A stretch of DNA of 64,000 bases from Tolypothrix sp. PCC 7910 (GTDB taxonomy: Bacteria; Cyanobacteriota; Cyanobacteriia; Cyanobacteriales; Nostocaceae), in the NCBI RefSeq assembly GCF_011769525.1, contig NZ_CP050440.1, forward strand, positions 7,674,001-7,738,000, written 5' to 3'. Numbering within the stretch: position 1 is the stretch's first letter; every line of letters starts with the position of its first letter. Made by a program: the position numbers and the translations under genes. Below, one piece after another: positions 21,510 to 63,920 of this stretch. The notes under the pieces are model-generated. The model searched no databases, was not told where the DNA came from, and was given only the letters and a program-made list of their open reading frames with translations.

Positions 21510-22238
21510 CTAATTCTGTGACCACAAATCAACTATCTCAAGCATTTTTTCACTGCTTATTGCTTTATTCATTTTTTTACCATGTGGGATTCTAACTCTT
21601 TCCACTACATCATTTAATGACTTAAACTGCCCTTTGCTACGCTCATTTTCTACTGATTCTGCAATCTGTTCGGCTTTTTTTGGTGCAAAACCAGCATTAC
21701 GTAATTTGTTAGCAATCTCTACTTTTCCTAACTTATTAAACACTTTTAATGGCTCATATATATTTGCTATTTGCTTCTTAAGAGCTTTGATTTCATTTTC
21801 TAGCTTGACATTAGCTGTAGCCTGTTCTAACACTTGATTAGTTATTTTTTCAAAACGTGCCTCTAAATTTATTAAGAATTTTTCAAAATCAATTGAGTTG
21901 AAGTTTGTCTTCTCAGAGATAGTAGATTTCTGCTGCCTGAAAATCTGTATTTGATTAGTTAAAGCTTCCTCATTCTCAGGCTCAATGATAAATACTCCAA
22001 TCATTTCTCCTTTACGAGGATCTATTTCTCTAGCTCTAGCAGCAGCATAATACTCAAAGTCGCCATCTATTACTTCGTATGATTGTAAACTTGTCCTGCG
22101 AACAACTATGGGATTAATAACGCCTTCAGAGTCTAAAATTAGTTGAGCAGCTTTTTCTATTTCATCATCTGCAAAAGTCGAGCGCAATTTGTTCGATGTA
22201 ATTTTTTTGACTGCAACTAGTGATGTAGATAACTTCAT
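21510..22238 (-). CDS. ParB-like protein with coiled coil and helix-hairpin-helix-like C-terminus
   Basis: A 242-residue protein. Residues ~5-95 resemble the ParB/sulfiredoxin N-terminal domain (INPIVVRR, then VIDGDFEYYAAARARE in place of the usual GERR box). Residues ~100-165 are charged and probably coiled coil. Residues ~170-242 contain two helix-hairpin-helix-like segments (ANKLRNAGFAPKKAEQIAES and FKSLNDVVERVRIPHGKKM). The KorB/ParB central HTH is missing, so DNA recognition would differ from a classical ParB. Its ATG overlaps the upstream ParA stop by one base (TAATG at 22236-22240), so the two are translationally coupled and likely form a complex. Plasmid-style partition, or a nuclease-linked DNA sensing role, are the main options. 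Confidence 0.8.
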   Translation of the reverse strand: MKLSTSLVAVKKITSNKLRSTFADDEIEKAAQLILDSEGVINPIVVRRTSLQSYEVIDGDFEYYAAARAREIDPRKGEMIGVFIIEPENEEALTNQIQIFRQQKSTISEKTNFNSIDFEKFLINLEARFEKITNQVLEQATANVKLENEIKALKKQIANIYEPLKVFNKLGKVEIANKLRNAGFAPKKAEQIAESVENERSKGQFKSLNDVVERVRIPHGKKMNKAISSEKMLEIVDLWSQN

Positions 22239-23602
22239 TAATCTAATCCTATTTTCTTTAAAACTTCTATTGCTAATAACTCAAATTCATGCGCTGATAG
22301 GGAGTCTGGTTTAAAATCTAATACTGATATAGGATCAGCTATTTCTATTTCTCCAACAATCTGAATCCTTTCAGCGCACTTTGCCAAATCTTCTCTTTCA
22401 TAAATCACAGCATCCATGACATTAATCCCATATCGGCTAGAAATTTTTTCTATCCTATTTTTTAATGTAGATTGTACAAACCTAGCATTTGTTGAGATTT
22501 TGCAAGGGAGGACTCCTATAATTTCAATTTGAGCCTTTCTTATTTGTTTCCTATATGCATTAATACTTTTGATAAATTCTTTAACATTTATTAGACCTTG
22601 GTTGGCAAAAGGTTTTAAATCCGAGGGAATTATTAAATAATCTGCTGCTATCAAGGCAATTTTTGCATATAGGTTTAAAGAAGGTGGCGTATCAATAAGT
22701 ACAACATCATATTTGTCCTTAACTTCCTCTAATTTTTCAAGTAGTATGAGTCGGCTATAATCGAGGGCATTTAGTTCTGTTTCTTGCCTAATTAAATCAA
22801 TATGTGCAGGAATTACATAAATTTCGGGATTACTAAAATTAGATTTTCTAGCTACTTCTGAAATAGAGTAAAAATCTTCAGATTGCAATACATGAAAAAC
22901 ATTAGAATCTTTTATATCATCAAACTCTTCATCATCAAATTTAACTAAACCTGTGGCAAATGTAGTGTTTGCTTGGCTATCTAAATCAATCACTAGTACT
23001 TTCTTACCTTTTTTTCTGATAGCAGCAGCTAAGTTAACTACAGTTGTAGTCTTACCAACGCCACCTTTATTATGATAAACAGCAATTATTTTCATGAAAT
23101 GCTCCTTTGGGTTTTCATTGATTAGATTATTTTCAATTCTTTGAATCTGTAAATTATCGATAATGTGTCTTGCTTGTAAACTATTTCTACCAATTAAATT
23201 GTGAATTTCTTTGAGCTTTGTTTCTACTTCTCGTCCACTACAGCAAAAAACTAGTCTAATATCATATTGAAATTTTTCATAAATTCTAATTTCTTTGCCA
23301 TTTGTTAATAATCCATAGTGTACATTTAGGCTTGTCAAATAATGCCTAAGTCTGGGAACGTGATTATTTAAGTTCTGTTTAGGATGCTTGGCCTCCATCA
23401 CAACACTCAGAGGCGAGTTTGCATCCAAAACAAAGGGAATAACTTGTGCTGCAAATGCTAAAAAATCTAAGCGGATACTACCAAAAACAACTTCTTGATG
23501 CCAGGTATCAGCAGTATACCCTAGCTCTGGTAGCAAATATTGAACTATGAGTTTACTTTCAACTTCGCTCTCGTTGCGGCACAGTTCAGGATTAAAAGGC
23601 AA
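22238..23602 (-). CDS. PD-(D/E)XK (HsdR-N-like) nuclease domain fused to ParA ATPase
   Basis: A 454-residue fusion. Residues ~10-110 look like the restriction-enzyme HsdR N-terminal / PD-(D/E)XK fold: Glu in ESEVESK, Asp in SIRLDFLAF (~45), and Glu-x-Lys in VVMEAKHP (~69-71), the catalytic pattern of this nuclease class. From residue 170 it is a complete ParA: deviant Walker A KGGVGKTT (~180), DLDSQANTTF and IDTPPSLN. An ATG with a good ribosome binding site lies exactly at the ParA start (23095), so a free ParA could also be made. The downstream ParB-like gene overlaps by one base. Known: ParA ATPases move DNA cargo and HsdR-N domains cut DNA. Inferred: the fusion may tie partition to DNA cleavage. 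Confidence 0.85.
   Translation of the reverse strand: MPFNPELCRNESEVESKLIVQYLLPELGYTADTWHQEVVFGSIRLDFLAFAAQVIPFVLDANSPLSVVMEAKHPKQNLNNHVPRLRHYLTSLNVHYGLLTNGKEIRIYEKFQYDIRLVFCCSGREVETKLKEIHNLIGRNSLQARHIIDNLQIQRIENNLINENPKEHFMKIIAVYHNKGGVGKTTTVVNLAAAIRKKGKKVLVIDLDSQANTTFATGLVKFDDEEFDDIKDSNVFHVLQSEDFYSISEVARKSNFSNPEIYVIPAHIDLIRQETELNALDYSRLILLEKLEEVKDKYDVVLIDTPPSLNLYAKIALIAADYLIIPSDLKPFANQGLINVKEFIKSINAYRKQIRKAQIEIIGVLPCKISTNARFVQSTLKNRIEKISSRYGINVMDAVIYEREDLAKCAERIQIVGEIEIADPISVLDFKPDSLSAHEFELLAIEVLKKIGLD
23096..23107 (-). promoter_or_regulatory. Internal Shine-Dalgarno for a stand-alone ParA start
   Basis: On the minus strand AAGGAG (23107-23102) is followed after six bases by ATG at 23095-23093, which begins MKIIAVYHNKGGVGKTT, exactly where an independent ParA would begin. 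This is better spaced than the signal I can see before most other starts here. It suggests a second product from the same frame, or a remnant of two formerly separate genes. Confidence 0.65.
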
Positions 23603-24085: not shown

Positions 24086-24970
24086 ATGGGATATGTAATT
24101 GCAACTGCAAATATGAAAGGTGGTGTCGGTAAAACCACCATTACAGTCAATTTAGCTACTTGTTTAGCTAAGTATCATGGCAAGCGGGTGTTGGTTTTAG
24201 ATTTAGACAGCCAAATTAGCGCCACACTCAGTTTGATGTCGCCTTTGGAATTTGCCAAGCGTCGCAAAAACAGGAAGACATTTAGATATCTAATAGACCA
24301 AGTTATCACCCCAGAACCGGATGCTAAATTGACGATTCAAGATATTGTTTACCCTAATGTTTGTAAGCTGCCTGGATTAGATTTATTACCAGGAGATATC
24401 GATTTATACGATGAATTTGTTGTCTCTGAAATGCTGCATCAACAATCGGTGGCTTTGGGTGAGCAGGATTTTGAAATGGTTTGGAACCGATTTGAAAGGG
24501 TGTTAATTAATAACATCTTAAAATCAGTTCGCCAAGAGTATGATTTTATCATTTTAGATTGTGCCCCTGGCTATAATCTCTTAACTCGTAGTGCTTTGGC
24601 TTGTAGTGATTTCTATATTTTACCTGCTAAACCAGAACCATTATCTGTAGTAGGTATTCAATTATTAGAAAGACGTATTGGACAATTAAAAGATAGTCAT
24701 GAACATGAAGCGAAAATCGATATAAAAATGCTGGGTATAGTATTTAGTATGTCGAGTTCAAATCTTTTAACTAGCAGATACTACAAACAAGTAATGCATC
24801 GCGTTGTGGAAGATTTTGGTGTAGAAAAAATTTGTAAAAACCAAATTCCCATTGATGTGAATGTGGCTAAGGCTGTTGATAGTTTTATGCCAGCTGTTTT
24901 AATGAGTCCGCAATCTCCTGGTTCTAAGGCATTTTTGCAGTTAACTCAGGAGTTGTTGCAGAAGTTATAG
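24086..24970 (+). CDS. ParA/MinD-superfamily ATPase (stand-alone)
   Basis: A 294-residue P-loop ATPase with the deviant Walker A NMKGGVGKTT (residues ~9-18, two lysines), Walker A' LDLDSQISATL (~40) and Walker B FIILDCAPGYN (~150). ParA ATPases position plasmids, chromosomes or protein machines on nucleoid or membrane. There is no MinD-type C-terminal amphipathic helix and no ParB beside it; the only ParB-like gene nearby belongs to the divergent fusion locus. It may serve protein or carboxysome-type positioning, or share that ParB. It is a different subtype from the neighbouring ParA (long insert after LMSPLEFAKRRKN). Confidence 0.88.
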   Translation: MGYVIATANMKGGVGKTTITVNLATCLAKYHGKRVLVLDLDSQISATLSLMSPLEFAKRRKNRKTFRYLIDQVITPEPDAKLTIQDIVYPNVCKLPGLDLLPGDIDLYDEFVVSEMLHQQSVALGEQDFEMVWNRFERVLINNILKSVRQEYDFIILDCAPGYNLLTRSALACSDFYILPAKPEPLSVVGIQLLERRIGQLKDSHEHEAKIDIKMLGIVFSMSSSNLLTSRYYKQVMHRVVEDFGVEKICKNQIPIDVNVAKAVDSFMPAVLMSPQSPGSKAFLQLTQELLQKL

Positions 24971-33637: not shown

Positions 33638-34777
33638 GTGACAGATTTGAATAACTACAACGCAGAACTAGCTGATAAAGAAACCTTAGAGGAAGAAGAT
33701 AAAGAGGAAGAAGATGAAAAAGTTACTTTCCAGTATGATCCTGAAAAAATCAACATTGTTACAAGGGAGCCAACTATTGAGCAATTACTCAGAAGAATTG
33801 ATGAAGAAGCCCTTGACTTAGCACCTGATTTTCAACGACAAGCGAATATATGGACTCCAGAAGCAAAAAGTAAATTAATTGAATCTATTCTGATTAGAAT
33901 ACCATTACCAGCTTTTTATATAGATGCTACCAATGAAGATAAATGGGTAGTTGTAGATGGATTACAACGATTATCTGCCATGAAGCAATTTATGATTGAC
34001 AAAACTGATAAGAGACTTAAATTAGCTGGCTTAGAATACTTGAAAGATTTAAATAATAAAACTTATGATGAATTAGAACGGAGATATCAACGTCGTATCC
34101 TAGAAACTCAAGTTACAGTATATTTGATAGAAAAAGGTACACCTTTACAAGTAAAATATAATATTTTCAAACGTATTAATACAGGAGGTGTCCGTCTTTC
34201 AAATCAAGAACTGCGACATGCTTTGAATCCTGGTAAAGCTACAAAAATTTTGGCTGATTTAGCTTCTTACCCAGAGTTTAAACGTGTTGTTAATCTTAGT
34301 GAATCTAAGAGAAAAAGAATGGATGATAGAGAGTTTATCCTAGGATTTATAGCTTTTTATCTAATCTCTTACAAAGAGTATCAAGATGAAACCAGAGACT
34401 CTTTTTTAAGTAAAGCTTTGTCGAAAGTAAATAGTTTATCTCAGGAAGAAATAACAAAATTAGAAACGGCTTTTAAAAAATCTATGATAGCAGCATTCGA
34501 TATTTTCAATGGTAATGCTTTTCGTAAAATATCTAGAAAAAATACAAGAAAATTCCCTATTAATAAATCATTATTTGAAGTTTGGTCTGTAAATCTTGGA
34601 AAGCTAGATATTCAAAATATTGAAATTTTAAAAGAAAGAAAAAAAGAACTAATAGATAATTTTATTAAATATGTAGATAATGATACAGAATTTCTACTAT
34701 CAATATCTCAAGCAGCCAATAAAATCGAGCATAGATTTGAAACTGTCGAAAAAATTATCCAAGAAGTATTATCATGA
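33638..34777 (+). CDS. DUF262 (GmrSD-N/ParB-like fold) protein
   Basis: A 379-residue protein starting at GTG 33638, with aaggag at 33624-33629. After an acidic Glu/Asp-rich tail (residues ~10-35), it has the DUF262 blocks: APDFQRQANIW (~65), VVDGLQRLSA (~108; the usual DGQQR is DGLQR here) and FKRINTGGVRLSNQELRHAL (~180). DUF262 domains occur in the GmrSD restriction enzyme and in many defence-associated proteins, with proposed NTP-dependent nuclease or sensor roles. The stop overlaps the next ATG (ATGA, 34774-34777), so it is made together with the ATPase. It is the first gene of a three-gene operon. Confidence 0.88.
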   Translation: MTDLNNYNAELADKETLEEEDKEEEDEKVTFQYDPEKINIVTREPTIEQLLRRIDEEALDLAPDFQRQANIWTPEAKSKLIESILIRIPLPAFYIDATNEDKWVVVDGLQRLSAMKQFMIDKTDKRLKLAGLEYLKDLNNKTYDELERRYQRRILETQVTVYLIEKGTPLQVKYNIFKRINTGGVRLSNQELRHALNPGKATKILADLASYPEFKRVVNLSESKRKRMDDREFILGFIAFYLISYKEYQDETRDSFLSKALSKVNSLSQEEITKLETAFKKSMIAAFDIFNGNAFRKISRKNTRKFPINKSLFEVWSVNLGKLDIQNIEILKERKKELIDNFIKYVDNDTEFLLSISQAANKIEHRFETVEKIIQEVLS

Positions 34778-35901
34778 TTAATTCTCTGAAGCTGACTAAT
34801 TACAAAGCTTTTGAAAATCAGTTACTAGAATTTAAACCATTAACCTTACTTTCTGGTCTAAATAGTACAGGAAAATCTTCTGTGCTGCAATCCCTACTTT
34901 TACTGCGTCAATCTTATCAACAAGAATTGTTGCCAAATATCGGTTTAGCATTGAATGGTGAATTAGTACGTATTGGTACTGCTCAAGATGCTTTTTGTGA
35001 AAGAGCCAAAGAAGATTATCTGGGTTTTGAAATTCTTTGGAATGATGGTAAAAAAGGGATTTGGCGTTTTATCTATGACCAAATTAAAACAGATGCAGAT
35101 ATTTTAAATAATTTAGATTCACAATTCTCAATTGATGCGGGTGTTTATAAATCAAAAAGTGTTTTTAATAAAAGATTTCACTATTTACAGGCGGAACGTC
35201 TCGGGCCACGAACATCTTATGATATGTCAGATTATCAAGCGCGACGATTAGGACAAATAGGTTCTAGAGGTGAATATACTGCACATTTTTTAGCAATTAA
35301 TCAAGATAGAGACGTTCTTCAAAGTAAGCTAAGACATCCGATGGCAAAATCTAACGCTCTTAGCAGCCAGGTTGAAGGATGGATGAGAGAAGTTAGTCCT
35401 GGTACAAGGATTAAAATCAATTCAAATTCAGATATAGGTTTGATGAGTTTGCAGTATTTCTATGGGGATAGTAACCCTTATCGCACAACTAATGTCGGAT
35501 TTGGAATTAGCTATACATTACCAATTATAGTAGCAGTTTTAGCCTCTTCTCCAGGTACACTAATTCTAATTGAAAATCCAGAAGCACATCTACATCCTAA
35601 AGGGCAAGTTAAGATGGGTGAATTATTGTCACTTGTAGCTAGTTGTGGAATTCAAGTAGTAATAGAAACCCATAGTGATCATGTTTTAAATGGTATTCGC
35701 CTTTCTGTTCATGGAGGTAAAATTAAGCCGGATGATGTTCAATTACATTATTTTCAGCGACAAGAAAAACAAGGACAATCTGTTACAGAGGTAGTATCAC
35801 CCCGTATTGATAGAAACGGAAGAATTGATAAATGGCCTGACGGTTTCTTTGATGAATGGGAAAGAAGTTTAGATATTTTACTTGAGCCCGCGGGGGATTA
35901 G
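34774..35901 (+). CDS. AAA/ABC-like ATPase with DUF3696 C-terminus
   Basis: A 375-residue SMC/OLD-like ATPase. Walker A is GLNSTGKSS (residues ~29-37). The ABC-type Walker B is LILIENPEAHLHP (~264) and the following switch is VVIETHSDHVLNG (~293). The C-terminal ~50 residues match DUF3696. Such ATPases occur as the energy module of several anti-phage systems and pair with a nuclease or toxin. It overlaps the DUF262 gene and ends three bases before the third gene. The role is inferred from operon and family. Confidence 0.9.
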   Translation: MINSLKLTNYKAFENQLLEFKPLTLLSGLNSTGKSSVLQSLLLLRQSYQQELLPNIGLALNGELVRIGTAQDAFCERAKEDYLGFEILWNDGKKGIWRFIYDQIKTDADILNNLDSQFSIDAGVYKSKSVFNKRFHYLQAERLGPRTSYDMSDYQARRLGQIGSRGEYTAHFLAINQDRDVLQSKLRHPMAKSNALSSQVEGWMREVSPGTRIKINSNSDIGLMSLQYFYGDSNPYRTTNVGFGISYTLPIIVAVLASSPGTLILIENPEAHLHPKGQVKMGELLSLVASCGIQVVIETHSDHVLNGIRLSVHGGKIKPDDVQLHYFQRQEKQGQSVTEVVSPRIDRNGRIDKWPDGFFDEWERSLDILLEPAGD

Positions 35902-35904
35902 AAG

Positions 35905-36888
35905 GTGGATTTTGACTTAATATTAAATGAGTTATCTTTGCGGCATCCTGCTCCAAATGAACAAGTAGCACGGCAAAGAATGTCTGATTTGATTAAGACC
36001 ATAAAAGCAGTTAAAGCTCAGGGGGTGAAAGTAAACCTTCGCACTAAAGAAGATTTTCATACAATAATACTTGCACCGAATTATCCTCTGCGCCGCTGGC
36101 TTAATGACGCAGAACAGGTTGAGCGAATTTTTATCAAAACTCTTGCAACTAAAGCACCTTTCTCAAGTGATATTGTAAATTCTGAGATCCAAGATATTGA
36201 AAATAATGCTAGCTTGTCTGAATTTCGTTATCAGGGAGAATTAGCTATTGGGCTGGGTATTGCTTATGTACTTAATACGATCACAATTAATACAATTGCA
36301 ATTAGCTTGCTCTCTCAGGAATGTTGGGATTGTAACCGTGTAAAACTGGAATTTCGATGCTTGGATGAGGATGGAGAGATAATTAGCGAGATTGTAGAGA
36401 TTATCCATGCTAGCCGTAGCAGCCATGTACAAGAACACGCAGGTCTAATTCAACAAAATCAAGAGCGCATTTATCAAGAAGTGAGCAATGGTGTAAAACT
36501 TTGGGAGCGAAGACGGGAATTATTTCCTAATTTAGAGTTCTGTGATGCTGTTAGAAAACAGTTAGAAAATATCCTTACTAGACAGTTAGAATTACAACCT
36601 GTTATCAACATATTATTGGAACTTCAGAAATGTTGCCAAAACTGGAATAGCGGCTATTTTAATCTTGAAGGTTACTCTATTGAGGAGTCTGGAGAGAGTG
36701 AACCAACACTGAAAAAATATGGCAAGGAAAGGACTTTTTTATGTCCTGATGGCCAAGAACGTTTATTTGAAAGGCATATTAAATTGAGATTTTGTAACTG
36801 GCGAATTCATTTCTTCCCACTCAAAACAGGAACAATCATTATTGGCTATGTTGGTCGCCATCTTCCAACAGTGAAGTATAAAACTTAG
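35905..36888 (+). CDS. Unknown protein, third gene of DUF262/DUF3696 operon
   Basis: A 327-residue soluble protein from a GTG at 35905, three bases after the ATPase stop. I do not recognise the whole family. Residues ~20-90 are basic. The C-terminal segment (HIKLRFCNWRIHFFP, then GTIIIGYVGRHLPT) has the alternating pattern of a small beta-sheet domain reminiscent of RelE/HigB-type toxins, with conserved-looking His, Arg and Lys. That likeness is only by eye. The tight coupling makes it the probable effector or specificity subunit of the operon. Confidence 0.7.
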   Translation: MDFDLILNELSLRHPAPNEQVARQRMSDLIKTIKAVKAQGVKVNLRTKEDFHTIILAPNYPLRRWLNDAEQVERIFIKTLATKAPFSSDIVNSEIQDIENNASLSEFRYQGELAIGLGIAYVLNTITINTIAISLLSQECWDCNRVKLEFRCLDEDGEIISEIVEIIHASRSSHVQEHAGLIQQNQERIYQEVSNGVKLWERRRELFPNLEFCDAVRKQLENILTRQLELQPVINILLELQKCCQNWNSGYFNLEGYSIEESGESEPTLKKYGKERTFLCPDGQERLFERHIKLRFCNWRIHFFPLKTGTIIIGYVGRHLPTVKYKT

Positions 36889-37307: not shown

Positions 37308-38009
37308 ATGACCTCTGCAATCAATTTCACAGAAGAACTCACACCTTTCCCCGACCATACGCAGCTACCAGAGTCTGATGGTACTTTCGTGAAGAATTTT
37401 CAGGAACATCCCCAAAGCAGTTTACTTACCGACTCCATTAAACCGATATTGCAAAAACGCCATCCTGATGGGCAATACTGCATAGGTCAAGATAGCGGGA
37501 TATATTGGCGGATGACTGACCCCCCAGAAAAAGGTGCAGAAGCACCAGATTGGTTCTATGTACCGAATGTACCACCCTTACTGGATGGGCAAATTCGTAG
37601 GTCTTATGTGTTATGGCGAGAGTTTATCGCTCCATTAATTGCTTTGGAGTTTGTTTCTGGTGATGGTAATGAAGAACGAGACAAAACGCCTTGGAAGGGG
37701 AAATTTTGGATTTATGAGCAAGTAATTCATCCGTCTTTTTATGGTATTTATGAAGTGAATAAAGCCAGCGTTGAAGTTTATGAATTAATTGGCGGACAAT
37801 ATCAATTAATGTCACCTAATGAACGCGGACATTATCCCATAACACCTTTGGGAGTAGAGTTAGGTATTTGGCAGGGACAATATCAAAACGCGGAATTACC
37901 TTGGCTGCGCTGGTGGGATGAGCAAGGTAATTTGTTGTTAACTGGGGAGGAAAGAGCCGATCGCCTAGCTGCTCAATTACGAGCTTTGGGTGTTGACCCA
38001 GAAGTATAA
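37308..38009 (+). CDS. Uma2 (DUF820) family putative endonuclease
   Basis: A 233-residue protein of the Uma2/DUF820 group, which is greatly expanded in cyanobacteria and has a PD-(D/E)XK-like fold. The core runs from residue ~105 (LIALEFVSGDGNEERD) through GKFWIYEQVI to FYGIYEVNKASVEVYEL. The C-terminal tail is the usual LLTGEERADRLAAQLRALG. Activity is unproven for most members; nuclease function is by fold. It directly follows the minisatellite. Confidence 0.85.
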   Translation: MTSAINFTEELTPFPDHTQLPESDGTFVKNFQEHPQSSLLTDSIKPILQKRHPDGQYCIGQDSGIYWRMTDPPEKGAEAPDWFYVPNVPPLLDGQIRRSYVLWREFIAPLIALEFVSGDGNEERDKTPWKGKFWIYEQVIHPSFYGIYEVNKASVEVYELIGGQYQLMSPNERGHYPITPLGVELGIWQGQYQNAELPWLRWWDEQGNLLLTGEERADRLAAQLRALGVDPEV

Positions 38010-61601: not shown

Positions 61602-63920
61602 ATGGCAAAAAGATCTCTTCAAGCATCAGATGAAGGTATTAGAAAAGCAAAACAGGCTTTTAAGCGCAAAGGTTGGACGCAAGAATATCTAGCTGCTACG
61701 GTCGGTTTAGAAACCCGTCAGCCAATTTGGAAGTTTTTTACTGGTAAACCCATAGACCGCCAAGCTTTTAACGAGATTTGTTTAGTTTTGGACTTAAACC
61801 CCTTAGAAATCTCGCAAAACTGTACTGAGGATGAATTAACACCTTTAGAACAGCCACTTCATATCAGTACGAATTTCAATCTAGACGTTGACAGTTTAGT
61901 AAAAAAGCTCAGATCAGCTCAATATGAAAGGATTCAGTCCCAGTGTGGTACGGTGCATATTTTGGATATTGCGCGGCCTATTGGGATAAATGAGTTATAT
62001 GTTGATGTCAATATCCTAGAAGAAATTAATAGTAAAAGATGGATAGATATTAGCGATTTACAGAAGGTTGATAGGGATAAATTTGAGCGTTTTGGTTTAG
62101 GACAAGTCCGTCAGAAACGAATTAGCGGACAAGATGTAGTATTACAATACTCTAAGTTGATGTTGTTAGGAAAACCAGGCTCCGGTAAAACAACATTTTT
62201 ACAGTCACTAGCTATAAATTGTAATCAAGGCAACTTTCGTCCTGATTGTTTGCCCATATTTATAAATTTAAAAAACTTTGCTGAAGACACAAGAGACCTT
62301 CTGCAACCTAGCCTAGTAAAATACATTCATAAATATTTTGCAGTTTTTGAGATCACAGAACAGCAAATTATCTCTGTATTATCTCAAGGAAAAGTATTAC
62401 TTTTATTAGACGCTTTAGATGAAGTTGCAGAACAAGATAGTGAAATAATTCTCAAAAATATTCGACAGTTTATTGAGATTTATCATAAAAATATTATAGT
62501 TATTACTTGCCGTGTAGCTGCCCAATATTATAGATTTCAAGGCTTTACAGAGGTAGAAATTGCCGATTTTACCAAATCGCAAATTGCTACTTTTGCTAAT
62601 AAATGGTTTTTATCTGTTGCCAAAAAAAGTCCCGCTAAAGCGCAGTCCTTGGCGCGTAAGTTTATCCAAAAATTAGAACTTGCAGAAAATGCCCAAATTT
62701 TAGAGTTAGCGTCTACACCAATTTTGTTGAATCTCACTTGTTTATTATTTCAGTTTGTCGAAGATTTTCCTTGTCAACGTGCTGAACTATATAAACAAGG
62801 ATTGGATCTACTACTAGTACGCTGGGATGAAGCAAGGGGTATCAAACGCGATCAAGTGTACCGGAATTTGTCACTGCTACAAAAAATTAAGCTGCTTAGT
62901 CGTGTTGCAGCAGTTACCTTTGCTCAAGGAGAGTATTTTCTTCCCGAAAAAAAAATGTATCAGCTAATTGCTGACTATCTGTCTCATCTTCCTCAAGGGA
63001 CACATGATGCCGATGCTTTAGAATTAGAGAGTGCAGCTGTTGTTAAAGCAATTGAAGCGCAACATGGATTATTAGTAGAAAGAGCCAGAGGAATTTATTC
63101 TTTTTCTCATTTGACGTTTCAAGAATACTTCACAGCTAGAGAAATTTTTGCTAATGCTAATACTCAAACACTACAAGAGCTAGTTAACCAAGTCAATGAA
63201 GAACGTTGGCGGGAAATATTTTTACTCACTGTAGAAATGTTGCAACCGGCTGATGAAATATTACAGCTAATGAAGCAAAAAATTGATAAGTTGGCAACCG
63301 CCAACGAAAAATTAGAAGATTTTCTCAACTGGTTAGTAGAGAAATCATCTACAGTCAAAGGATGTTATCATCCTGCTAGCGTGCGTGCCTTTTACTTTAC
63401 AATTGCGCTACCACCTGAGCATCCTTTAGCTCGTACCCAAAATTTTGCGATATCTTTAGACCCTCAAATGGCCGGGAATCTATCTCTTGATTTAGCATTA
63501 GATTTGGCTCTAACTCATGCCCTATCTGTAAGTGTAACAATCACTGCTGATATATTTAGCCAACGCTTATTTGCTTTAAGTTTAGCTCTCGACCTAGAAC
63601 ATTTACTAACAGATGAGCCATCTTTACAAACATCACTAAAATTATTAAAGAATCAATTACCATCACCAAAACAAGGTAGAGAAGCATTAAAAATGTGGTG
63701 GCAAACTCATGGTGAAGGTTGGATTAGGAAATTGCGAACTTTAATTATTGGTTCCCGCCAAATTGGTCATGCTTGGCAGTTTAACGAACAGGAATGGCAG
63801 GATTTACAACAGTATTGGTATGCCAATCAATTACTACTAGATTGTCTTAATAGCGCTACTAATGTCACTCCAAATGTACGAGAGTCAATAGAAAATAGTT
63901 TGCTGTTGGTTTGTGGTTAA
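61602..63920 (+). CDS. HTH-NACHT NTPase (bacterial NLR-like)
   Basis: A 772-residue protein from ATG 61602 (ggtgag just upstream). Residues ~8-70 are an XRE-like HTH (KGWTQEYLAATVGLETRQPIWKF), typical of cyanobacterial NACHT proteins. The NACHT NTPase runs ~180-480: Walker A GKPGSGKTT (~189), Walker B LLLLDALDEV (~266), and NIIVITCRVAA sensor-like strand. A helical region with FSHLTFQEYFTAREI (~505) follows. The C-terminal ~220 residues form a domain with SLDLALDLALTHALS repeats. NACHT proteins are STAND switches, several act in anti-phage defence. Role here is unproven. It reaches the repeat array at the window end. Confidence 0.9.
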   Translation: MAKRSLQASDEGIRKAKQAFKRKGWTQEYLAATVGLETRQPIWKFFTGKPIDRQAFNEICLVLDLNPLEISQNCTEDELTPLEQPLHISTNFNLDVDSLVKKLRSAQYERIQSQCGTVHILDIARPIGINELYVDVNILEEINSKRWIDISDLQKVDRDKFERFGLGQVRQKRISGQDVVLQYSKLMLLGKPGSGKTTFLQSLAINCNQGNFRPDCLPIFINLKNFAEDTRDLLQPSLVKYIHKYFAVFEITEQQIISVLSQGKVLLLLDALDEVAEQDSEIILKNIRQFIEIYHKNIIVITCRVAAQYYRFQGFTEVEIADFTKSQIATFANKWFLSVAKKSPAKAQSLARKFIQKLELAENAQILELASTPILLNLTCLLFQFVEDFPCQRAELYKQGLDLLLVRWDEARGIKRDQVYRNLSLLQKIKLLSRVAAVTFAQGEYFLPEKKMYQLIADYLSHLPQGTHDADALELESAAVVKAIEAQHGLLVERARGIYSFSHLTFQEYFTAREIFANANTQTLQELVNQVNEERWREIFLLTVEMLQPADEILQLMKQKIDKLATANEKLEDFLNWLVEKSSTVKGCYHPASVRAFYFTIALPPEHPLARTQNFAISLDPQMAGNLSLDLALDLALTHALSVSVTITADIFSQRLFALSLALDLEHLLTDEPSLQTSLKLLKNQLPSPKQGREALKMWWQTHGEGWIRKLRTLIIGSRQIGHAWQFNEQEWQDLQQYWYANQLLLDCLNSATNVTPNVRESIENSLLLVCG

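Follow-up and report, generated by a model that had tools for sequence, protein, structure and literature searches.

A predicted nuclease fused to ParA and overlapping a ParB-like gene

We analysed a 64,000-nucleotide (nt) window from the genome of the cyanobacterium Tolypothrix sp. PCC 7910 (contig NZ_CP050440.1, positions 7,674,001 to 7,738,000), in which two overlapping reverse-strand genes join a predicted nuclease to a partition ATPase. One open reading frame (ORF; 22238-23602, TTG start) encodes a 454-residue fusion of an N-terminal PD-(D/E)XK nuclease domain of the HsdR_N type (residues 1-165; 23108..23602) and a ParA domain (22241..23095). The other (21510-22238, ATG start) encodes a 242-residue ParB-like partner and shares a single base, position 22238, with the fusion ORF. 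Divergent to this module on the forward strand lies an orphan ParA gene, ParA2 (24086..24970), which we use as a marker of the chromosomal site and do not claim as a component. A preliminary description of these letters had proposed a PD-(D/E)XK pattern fused to a complete ParA, followed after a one-base overlap by a ParB-like gene lacking a classical helix-turn-helix (HTH) and ending in a helix-hairpin-helix (HhH)-like tail. Each of these elements was recovered in our analysis.

The Pfam family HSDR_N matched fusion residues 62-112 (E 1.8e-5) at 25.1 bits, exactly its curated cut-off, and HSDR_N_2 matched residues 17-109 under its cut-off (E 1.7e-4). At E up to 0.01, HSDR_N_2 was found in 43/43 and HSDR_N in 42/43 aligned homologous N-termini, so the match is not due to chance. 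We followed individual residues through 113 distinct ORFs of more than 400 amino acids (aa) with a fusion-profile match at E below 1e-60, drawn from three locus sets with partly overlapping genomes and with identical DNA counted once. E11 and D46 were present in 111 of these and E70, K72, Y88 and G102 in 112 each; the missing residues are gaps in L072, which is without the N-terminal part, and L068, in which a helicase part replaces the nuclease domain. The L-D46-F and E70-A-K72 motifs, picked out earlier as LDF and EAK, are therefore real, and the profile match includes the D...E-x-K active site of HsdR_N PD-(D/E)XK nucleases. Aligning the family profile to three restriction-type nucleases from the plasmid collection placed E-x-K, Y and TNG in register; the active-site D also lines up in L342 and L344, but the L343 alignment does not extend to it. 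We assign the nuclease domain on the strength of the profiles and this alignment; a search of the nuclease profile against PDB sequences returned no credible nuclease.

The ParA domain is complete (AAA_31/ParA at residues 170-350, E 1.3e-56). It carries the deviant Walker A motif KGGVGKTT, and the signature lysine K179 together with the Walker A lysine K184 and the switch and Walker B aspartates D206, D208 and D304 occurs in 113/113 ORFs, as expected of deviant Walker A ParA ATPases. Judging from codon comparisons limited to 80-97% DNA identity (150 pairs for each part), both parts of the fusion are under purifying selection, with median ratios of non-synonymous to synonymous change of 0.097 for the nuclease and 0.087 for ParA.

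ParA is probably also made alone, as a second product from an internal start. The predicted start, an ATG at Met170 (23093..23095), lies close to the left border of the exchanged cassette described below, and a Shine-Dalgarno match, AAAGGAG (23102..23108), ends 6 nt 5' of it. The native ParA start could be recognised by pattern in 98/113 ORFs, where it is ATG in 89 and GTG in 9; the other 15 have Met in 14 cases and not in L202. Where valine stands at this position the codon is GTG in all nine, although only 517/3683 valine codons overall are GTG. Shine-Dalgarno matches of at least 4 bases precede 78/98 of these starts versus 83/832 other internal ATG/GTG codons (counts given without a p-value because related sequences are not independent). 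Our prediction of a ParA-only product follows from this conserved start and its mostly accompanying Shine-Dalgarno match. Separately, the fusion frame is broken in L069, L198, L199 and L201, and in L069, L199 and L201 the break falls at or just past the P-loop. A programmed frameshift on the A-run that follows the P-loop was considered and rejected, since the breaks lie off such runs in the stretches examined of L199 and L201.

The partner gene encodes an unusual ParB relative. ParB_N matched its residues 9-69 (E 4.9e-8), and ParB profile matches reach residues 1-109 at most. A structural model (mean predicted local distance difference test 81.3, predicted template modelling score 0.46) shows a ParB/Srx CTPase-type fold at residues 1-108 (21915..22238), then a long helix, then a C-terminal HhH-like region (residues 152-242; 21513..21785). 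The partner is thus predicted to have the N-terminal fold of canonical ParB, and a weak HHH_6 match at residues 190-216 (E 0.013, under cut-off) is consistent with the modelled tail. The HTH that would read parS is absent from the model, and no HTH family matched at E up to 1. GDFEYYAA replaces the GERR motif of canonical ParB, whereas GERR and ENLQR are both present in 3/3 ParBs on plasmid contigs of the same genome. Across the family, arginine at either aligned motif position was found in 1/45 (A2) and 0/55 (A5) ParB-like proteins, which appear as a group to lack the GERR/ENLQR motifs of CTP-binding ParB. All four other partners scanned end in a Rho_N domain (4/4). Searches with the canonical parS consensus found no site, whether allowing up to 1 mismatch across the Tolypothrix genome or up to 3 across the window. 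In this genome contigs C2, C4 and C7 alone hold a canonical ParB above cut-off, and C1 has three sub-threshold matches.

We also observed a recurrent third gene (~235 aa) directly 3' of the ParB-like gene in several loci (for example L051:6591-7298), which was not seen at this position in the window. In L051 its winged-helix-like N-terminus resembles the C-terminus of ZorC (PADLOC, E 5e-7), and its C-terminus has a hydrophobic stretch, judged by eye.

The ParA-ParB half appears to be an exchangeable cassette

Comparing loci revealed that the two halves of the module differ in their histories. Identity between the window and L049, from the same genus, is 88% for the nuclease, 55% for ParA and 35% for ParB, with 95% for ParA2 and 90% for IleS; for L036, from another family, the corresponding values are 79, 77, 57, 63 and 78%. 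We correlated pairwise identities across the window and the named genomes among the best loci (73 of 80), which had been selected by nuclease similarity. The nuclease half tracks the flanking genes, with Mantel rho of 0.80 for ParA2 (n=35), 0.77 for IleS (n=24) and 0.84 for GT2 (n=43). For the ParA half the same comparisons gave 0.06, -0.04 and 0.01 (Mantel p 0.14, 0.65 and 0.42). ParA instead follows ParB (rho 0.72, n=74), and ParB carries a weak signal of the flanks (rho 0.23 and 0.27, p 0.01; 0.05 with GT2). ParA2 and IleS correlate at rho 0.83, so ParA2 itself does not shuffle. Mapping two ParA classes (42 and 32) onto the nuclease tree required 24 changes versus a shuffled mean of 24.3, and 106/200 shuffles gave as few changes or fewer. 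Class changes numbered 16 on the GT2 tree (shuffled 14.2) and 12 on the ParA2 tree (shuffled 12.2).

The borders of the exchanged segment can be seen in close relatives. Anabaena lutea and A. catenula (L153 and L154) are 87-100% identical in DNA up to ~+540, fall to 25-82% from ~+570 to +2130, and return to 92-100% thereafter. We profiled 102 of 104 such pairs (27 loci; nuclease identity >=93%, ParA <70%), which share loci and are not independent. The left border lies at a median of 19 nt 5' of the P-loop codons (interquartile range -154 to +11). The right border, measured in the 51/102 pairs with a clean right flank, lies at a median of 96 nt past the ParB stop (interquartile range about +29 to +202), with a tenth percentile of -440, inside ParB. 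Some pairs (L091/L105) have ParB in common but not ParA; therefore exchange does not always involve the whole ParA-ParB pair. Together, these patterns suggest that the ParA-ParB half is a cassette exchanged between strains under a resident nuclease.

Related fusions and their variants

In the cyanobacterial genomes searched, the two genes are conserved as a pair with their catalytic and Walker residues kept. The nuclease domain matched at E below 1e-18 in 64/386 genomes drawn from the phylum, mostly in open frames of ~450 codons or longer, with some shorter. Only the best 80 of 243 contig matches, all with cyanobacterial titles, were used, and the family may therefore also occur in other phyla. 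More divergent fusions share the same plan; with our own type letters, A being the most common form scored below, these are type B (for example L074-L077, L196, L202-L207 and L211), type C and a single type D (L195). Type C was found in 12/58 genomes and also in Tolypothrix itself (G000:C1:2026546-2027883), where its partner has ParB_N/Rho_N; by eye it keeps a D and an E-L-K motif, and HSDR_N_2 matches it (E 1.8e-6).

Other ParA copies are combined differently. In L068 (7773-10973) ParA is fused to AAA_12, the second half of an SF1 helicase, with a ParB-like partner downstream, and the preceding ORF is an AAA_11 helicase half with weak MTES_1575/DUF559 nuclease matches. Nuclease-less ParA copies were seen at L051:14638, L053:10064, L059:3769, L066:7260, L067:9162 and L073:9335, and all but L053:10064 adjoin a downstream partner gene. 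Within 2.5 kb upstream, no degraded nuclease was matched in L051, L059, L066, L067 or L073; the same interval of L053:10064 holds a single 31-residue nuclease match, and the split L069 has a nuclease part.

On plasmids, tblastn with the whole fusion gave ParA-type matches among the 40 listed of at least 5000 records, many of them unannotated; one record covered >=80% of the query and could not be recognised among those 40. Fusion residues 60-300 found RepA in the 8 listed of 2115 records; two of the 2115 cover >=80% and fall outside those 8, so a distant plasmid fusion may exist. Searching with just the nuclease part gave 11 plasmid records, named N-6 DNA methylase, HsdR-type or type I restriction, or DUF5655, and 20 phage records, named restriction-modification or methylase save two hypothetical proteins. 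The ParB-like protein matched no plasmid record and no phage record, and a scan of viral contigs with the nuclease profile found no relative. One of the plasmid matches, on Thermus thermophilus plasmid pTthSNM3-3c (L342:1-1479), is an N-6 DNA methylase with a related nuclease domain, separated by 3 nt from a preceding ParB/RepB/Spo0J partition gene, perhaps another nuclease-partition link.

An FtsK-nuclease system largely excludes the module

ParA2 marks a chromosomal site that the module has in common with a second gene set. Next to ParA2, many fusion-less relatives encode a winged HTH (wHTH)-like protein (~290 aa, no Pfam match), an AAA_16/KAP ATPase (~690 aa) and a ~860-aa protein combining DEDD exonuclease, PD-(D/E)XK, FtsK-alpha and FtsK domains (PADLOC SspH, E 1e-69). 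The accessible text of PMC10853773 describes operons of an Orc/CDC6 ATPase, a restriction endonuclease (REase), a wHTH protein and FtsK as likely directed against selfish elements; in some of them FtsK carries a fused 3'-5' exonuclease. By analogy, the wHTH/AAA_16/FtsK-exonuclease set resembles one of these published candidate anti-invader systems.

We compared the presence of the two systems in 98 genomes. The lists were compiled by hand and include many draft genomes; they omit FtsK fragments (for example in G020, G046 and G095), do not score types C and D as fusions, and score as present the ParA-only relatives of G053, G056, G082 and G091 and the helicase-ParA of G096. A fusion or ParA relative occurred in 49 genomes (45 type A, 4 type B) and the FtsK gene in 48: 9 have both, 40 the fusion only, 39 FtsK only and 10 neither (p 1.4e-9). 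Excluding the four ParA-only genomes left 7 with both and 12 with neither (p 5.5e-10). The host's own family divides into 7 with both, 21 fusion only, 27 FtsK only and 3 neither, and the other families into 2, 19, 12 and 7 (p 6.5e-4). Controlling for phylogeny on the ParA2 tree (93 genomes, 15 independent pairs differing in the fusion) gave averages of 10.3 pairs in which FtsK changed in the opposite direction, 0.1 in the same direction and 4.6 unchanged (median p 0.002, range 0.0005-0.039); within the own family alone, 8.5/11 were opposite (median p 0.008, range 0.002-0.125). The module and the FtsK-nuclease system largely exclude each other and often occupy one site. In the own family, 20/28 fusions and 25/33 FtsK genes are no more than 8 kb from ParA2. 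FtsK-system parts, often fragments, also occur in the flanks of 12/79 named fusion loci. In the Tolypothrix genome the only match at E up to 1e-60 covers residues 1-192 of the FtsK-exonuclease protein.

What the module may do

We infer that the module may recognise DNA and cut it with ParA in control, as the preliminary description had suggested; the internal start, the ParA-ParB exchange and the tendency of module and FtsK-nuclease system to exclude each other go beyond it. Our favoured explanation, a tentative one that falls somewhat short of probable, is a chromosomally encoded, ATP-switched DNA-interference system. With its C-terminal domain, HhH-like or Rho_N, the ParB-like protein would mark either DNA itself or a complex bound to DNA, choosing where the system acts. 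ParA-ATP dimers would assemble at the mark and bring two nuclease domains together, both being required for double-strand cleavage. The ParA-only product would dilute nuclease-bearing subunits and set a threshold, and ParB-stimulated ATP hydrolysis would free the complex. The likely target would be DNA that invades or competes, for example that of plasmids or phages. In this proposal the ParA-ParB half diversifies because it is the specificity or evasion part, and its diversification fits a part in conflict with invader targets or inhibitors, or with resident plasmid ParABs. The helicase-ParA of L068, which may represent another effector architecture in one genome, counts in favour of DNA interference. 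So do the kept catalytic residues under purifying selection, the HSDR_N_2 matches and the alignment to restriction-type nucleases, the cassette exchange, the exclusion with the FtsK gene, and the anti-invader role proposed for similar operons in PMC10853773. Several observations weigh against it. Carriage of one system or the other by 88/98 genomes is more regular than expected for defence and fits housekeeping; the exclusion may partly be competition for one chromosomal site; and ParA-ParB pairs exist without any nuclease. Furthermore, the nuclease correlates with ParA (rho 0.10) and ParB (rho 0.29; both p 0.001), meaning that the halves are not fully independent, and PADLOC matched only the ParA part of the fusion (PDC-M28B, E 3e-11 and 4e-4; mad8, 0.016).

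The main rival, which we consider unlikely, is chromosome maintenance. Here the module and the FtsK-exonuclease system would be interchangeable ways to process or segregate the DNA of a chromosome without canonical parS where it is entangled, unreplicated or has broken ends, and ParA-ParB would diversify against cross-talk with resident plasmid ParABs. The 88/98 coverage speaks for this, as do the lack of parS at up to 1 mismatch, the confinement of above-cut-off canonical ParB to C2, C4 and C7 with C1 holding the three sub-threshold matches, and a nuclease half that follows its flanking genes. So, too, does exclusion away from ParA2: 12 own-family genomes with ParA2 have no copy within 8 kb of it, and these comprise 6 fusion only, 5 FtsK only and 1 both. 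Yet housekeeping genes do not usually show the near-free exchange seen for the ParA half, neither system occurs in 10/98 genomes, and operons of the FtsK-nuclease type are proposed to act against invaders in the accessible text of PMC10853773. The same 12 genomes bear against simple competition for a site, in which two accessory systems replace each other at a hotspot beside ParA2-ileS and need not share a function. This account, less likely again, draws on the clustering of both systems near ParA2 and on G043, G053 and G056, each of which has one system beside ParA2 and the second elsewhere (8.4 kb distant in G053), showing that separated copies can coexist. Exclusion nevertheless extends to other families (2/19/12/7, p 6.5e-4), and both systems lie <=12 kb apart in G027, G028, G036, G050 and G053.

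The preliminary description had also raised a partition locus belonging to an integrated element; such a locus, or one of plasmid origin, would make the nuclease incidental, and we regard this as highly improbable. A ParA gene paired with a ParB-fold gene, and the existence of ParA-only pairs, are what such a locus would offer. Homologs, however, keep D46 in 111/113 and E70/K72 in 112/113 ORFs. The chromosomal site beside ParA2-ileS is common to many relatives, the nuclease half is inherited like its flanks, and the partner has no HTH. Within the plasmid, phage and viral-contig searches described above, no fusion was recognised: none of the 11 plasmid and 20 phage nuclease records is annotated ParA, the viral contigs held no relative of the nuclease, and the ParB-like protein found no plasmid or phage match.

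Should DNA interference be the right explanation, a partition motor that normally keeps DNA would be wired to a nuclease that destroys it, partition specificity would be swappable like a restriction specificity subunit, and two unrelated pairings of a segregation ATPase with a nuclease would replace each other in cyanobacteria. This raises the question of what job requires most of these genomes to have one system or the other. It is possible, though doubtful, that the module typifies a broader 'ParA-capture' class: a nuclease controlled by a partition ATPase and a parS-less ParB-like protein, with mixed subunits and exchangeable cassettes, interchangeable with FtsK-nuclease systems, and with most genomes of the order keeping one.

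Neighbouring features of the window

Gene sets resembling anti-invader systems neighbour the module in part of the related genomes. In the window, a GmrSD_N protein, an AAA_15/DUF3696 ATPase and a 327-aa protein without a Pfam match stand in one row at 33638-36888, ~10 kb from the module, and are perhaps another defence-type operon. Positions 37308-38009 encode a Uma2-family putative restriction endonuclease and 61602-63920 a NACHT protein with an NCH2 C-terminus. Rfam and tRNA scans of the window gave no matches, and nothing convincing was found by way of repeats near the two genes.

Comparison with known systems

The module shares with ParABS a complete ParA with deviant Walker A and an overlapping downstream gene for a ParB-fold partner. 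It departs from ParABS in the nuclease domain at the N-terminus of ParA and in a partner that is without HTH, GERR and ENLQR, ends in an HhH-like or Rho_N domain, and comes without a canonical parS that we could find. Type Ia ParAs carry an N-terminal HTH as their DNA-binding domain, and the predicted nuclease appears to occupy that position. Type I and IIG restriction enzymes have nucleases of the same Pfam families, HSDR_N and HSDR_N_2; unlike them, the module has a ParA ATPase in place of helicase, methylase and specificity parts. No helicase domain scored over cut-off in the 454-aa fusion, and no HsdM/HsdS partner was recognised as a recurrent neighbour family, most neighbours being unannotated.

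HerA/FtsK capture systems, as portrayed in the accessible text of PMC10853773, likewise join a nuclease to a DNA-segregation ATPase, and a similar-looking gene set stands at the same chromosomal site in relatives. They use an FtsK translocase, with REase and Orc/CDC6 ATPase, where the module has ParA; the gene sets differ and are largely mutually exclusive. GmrSD, in the accessible text of PMC12839542, also brings a ParB/Srx-type fold into a DNA-conflict enzyme, with the ParB-like domain accompanying an HNH nuclease, whereas the module keeps its ParB-like protein separate and carries the nuclease on ParA. SspE appears to be another enzyme of this GmrSD type with a ParB-like domain. A 2025 survey of ParB-fold fusions (PMC12704722) reports HNH and other fusions, and its accessible text gave no match for helix-hairpin-helix or Rho. 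We found no description of a nuclease-ParA fusion in the literature searched, with preprints and most subscription papers outside its scope. The module thus looks like an undescribed way of handling DNA, possibly that of invaders.

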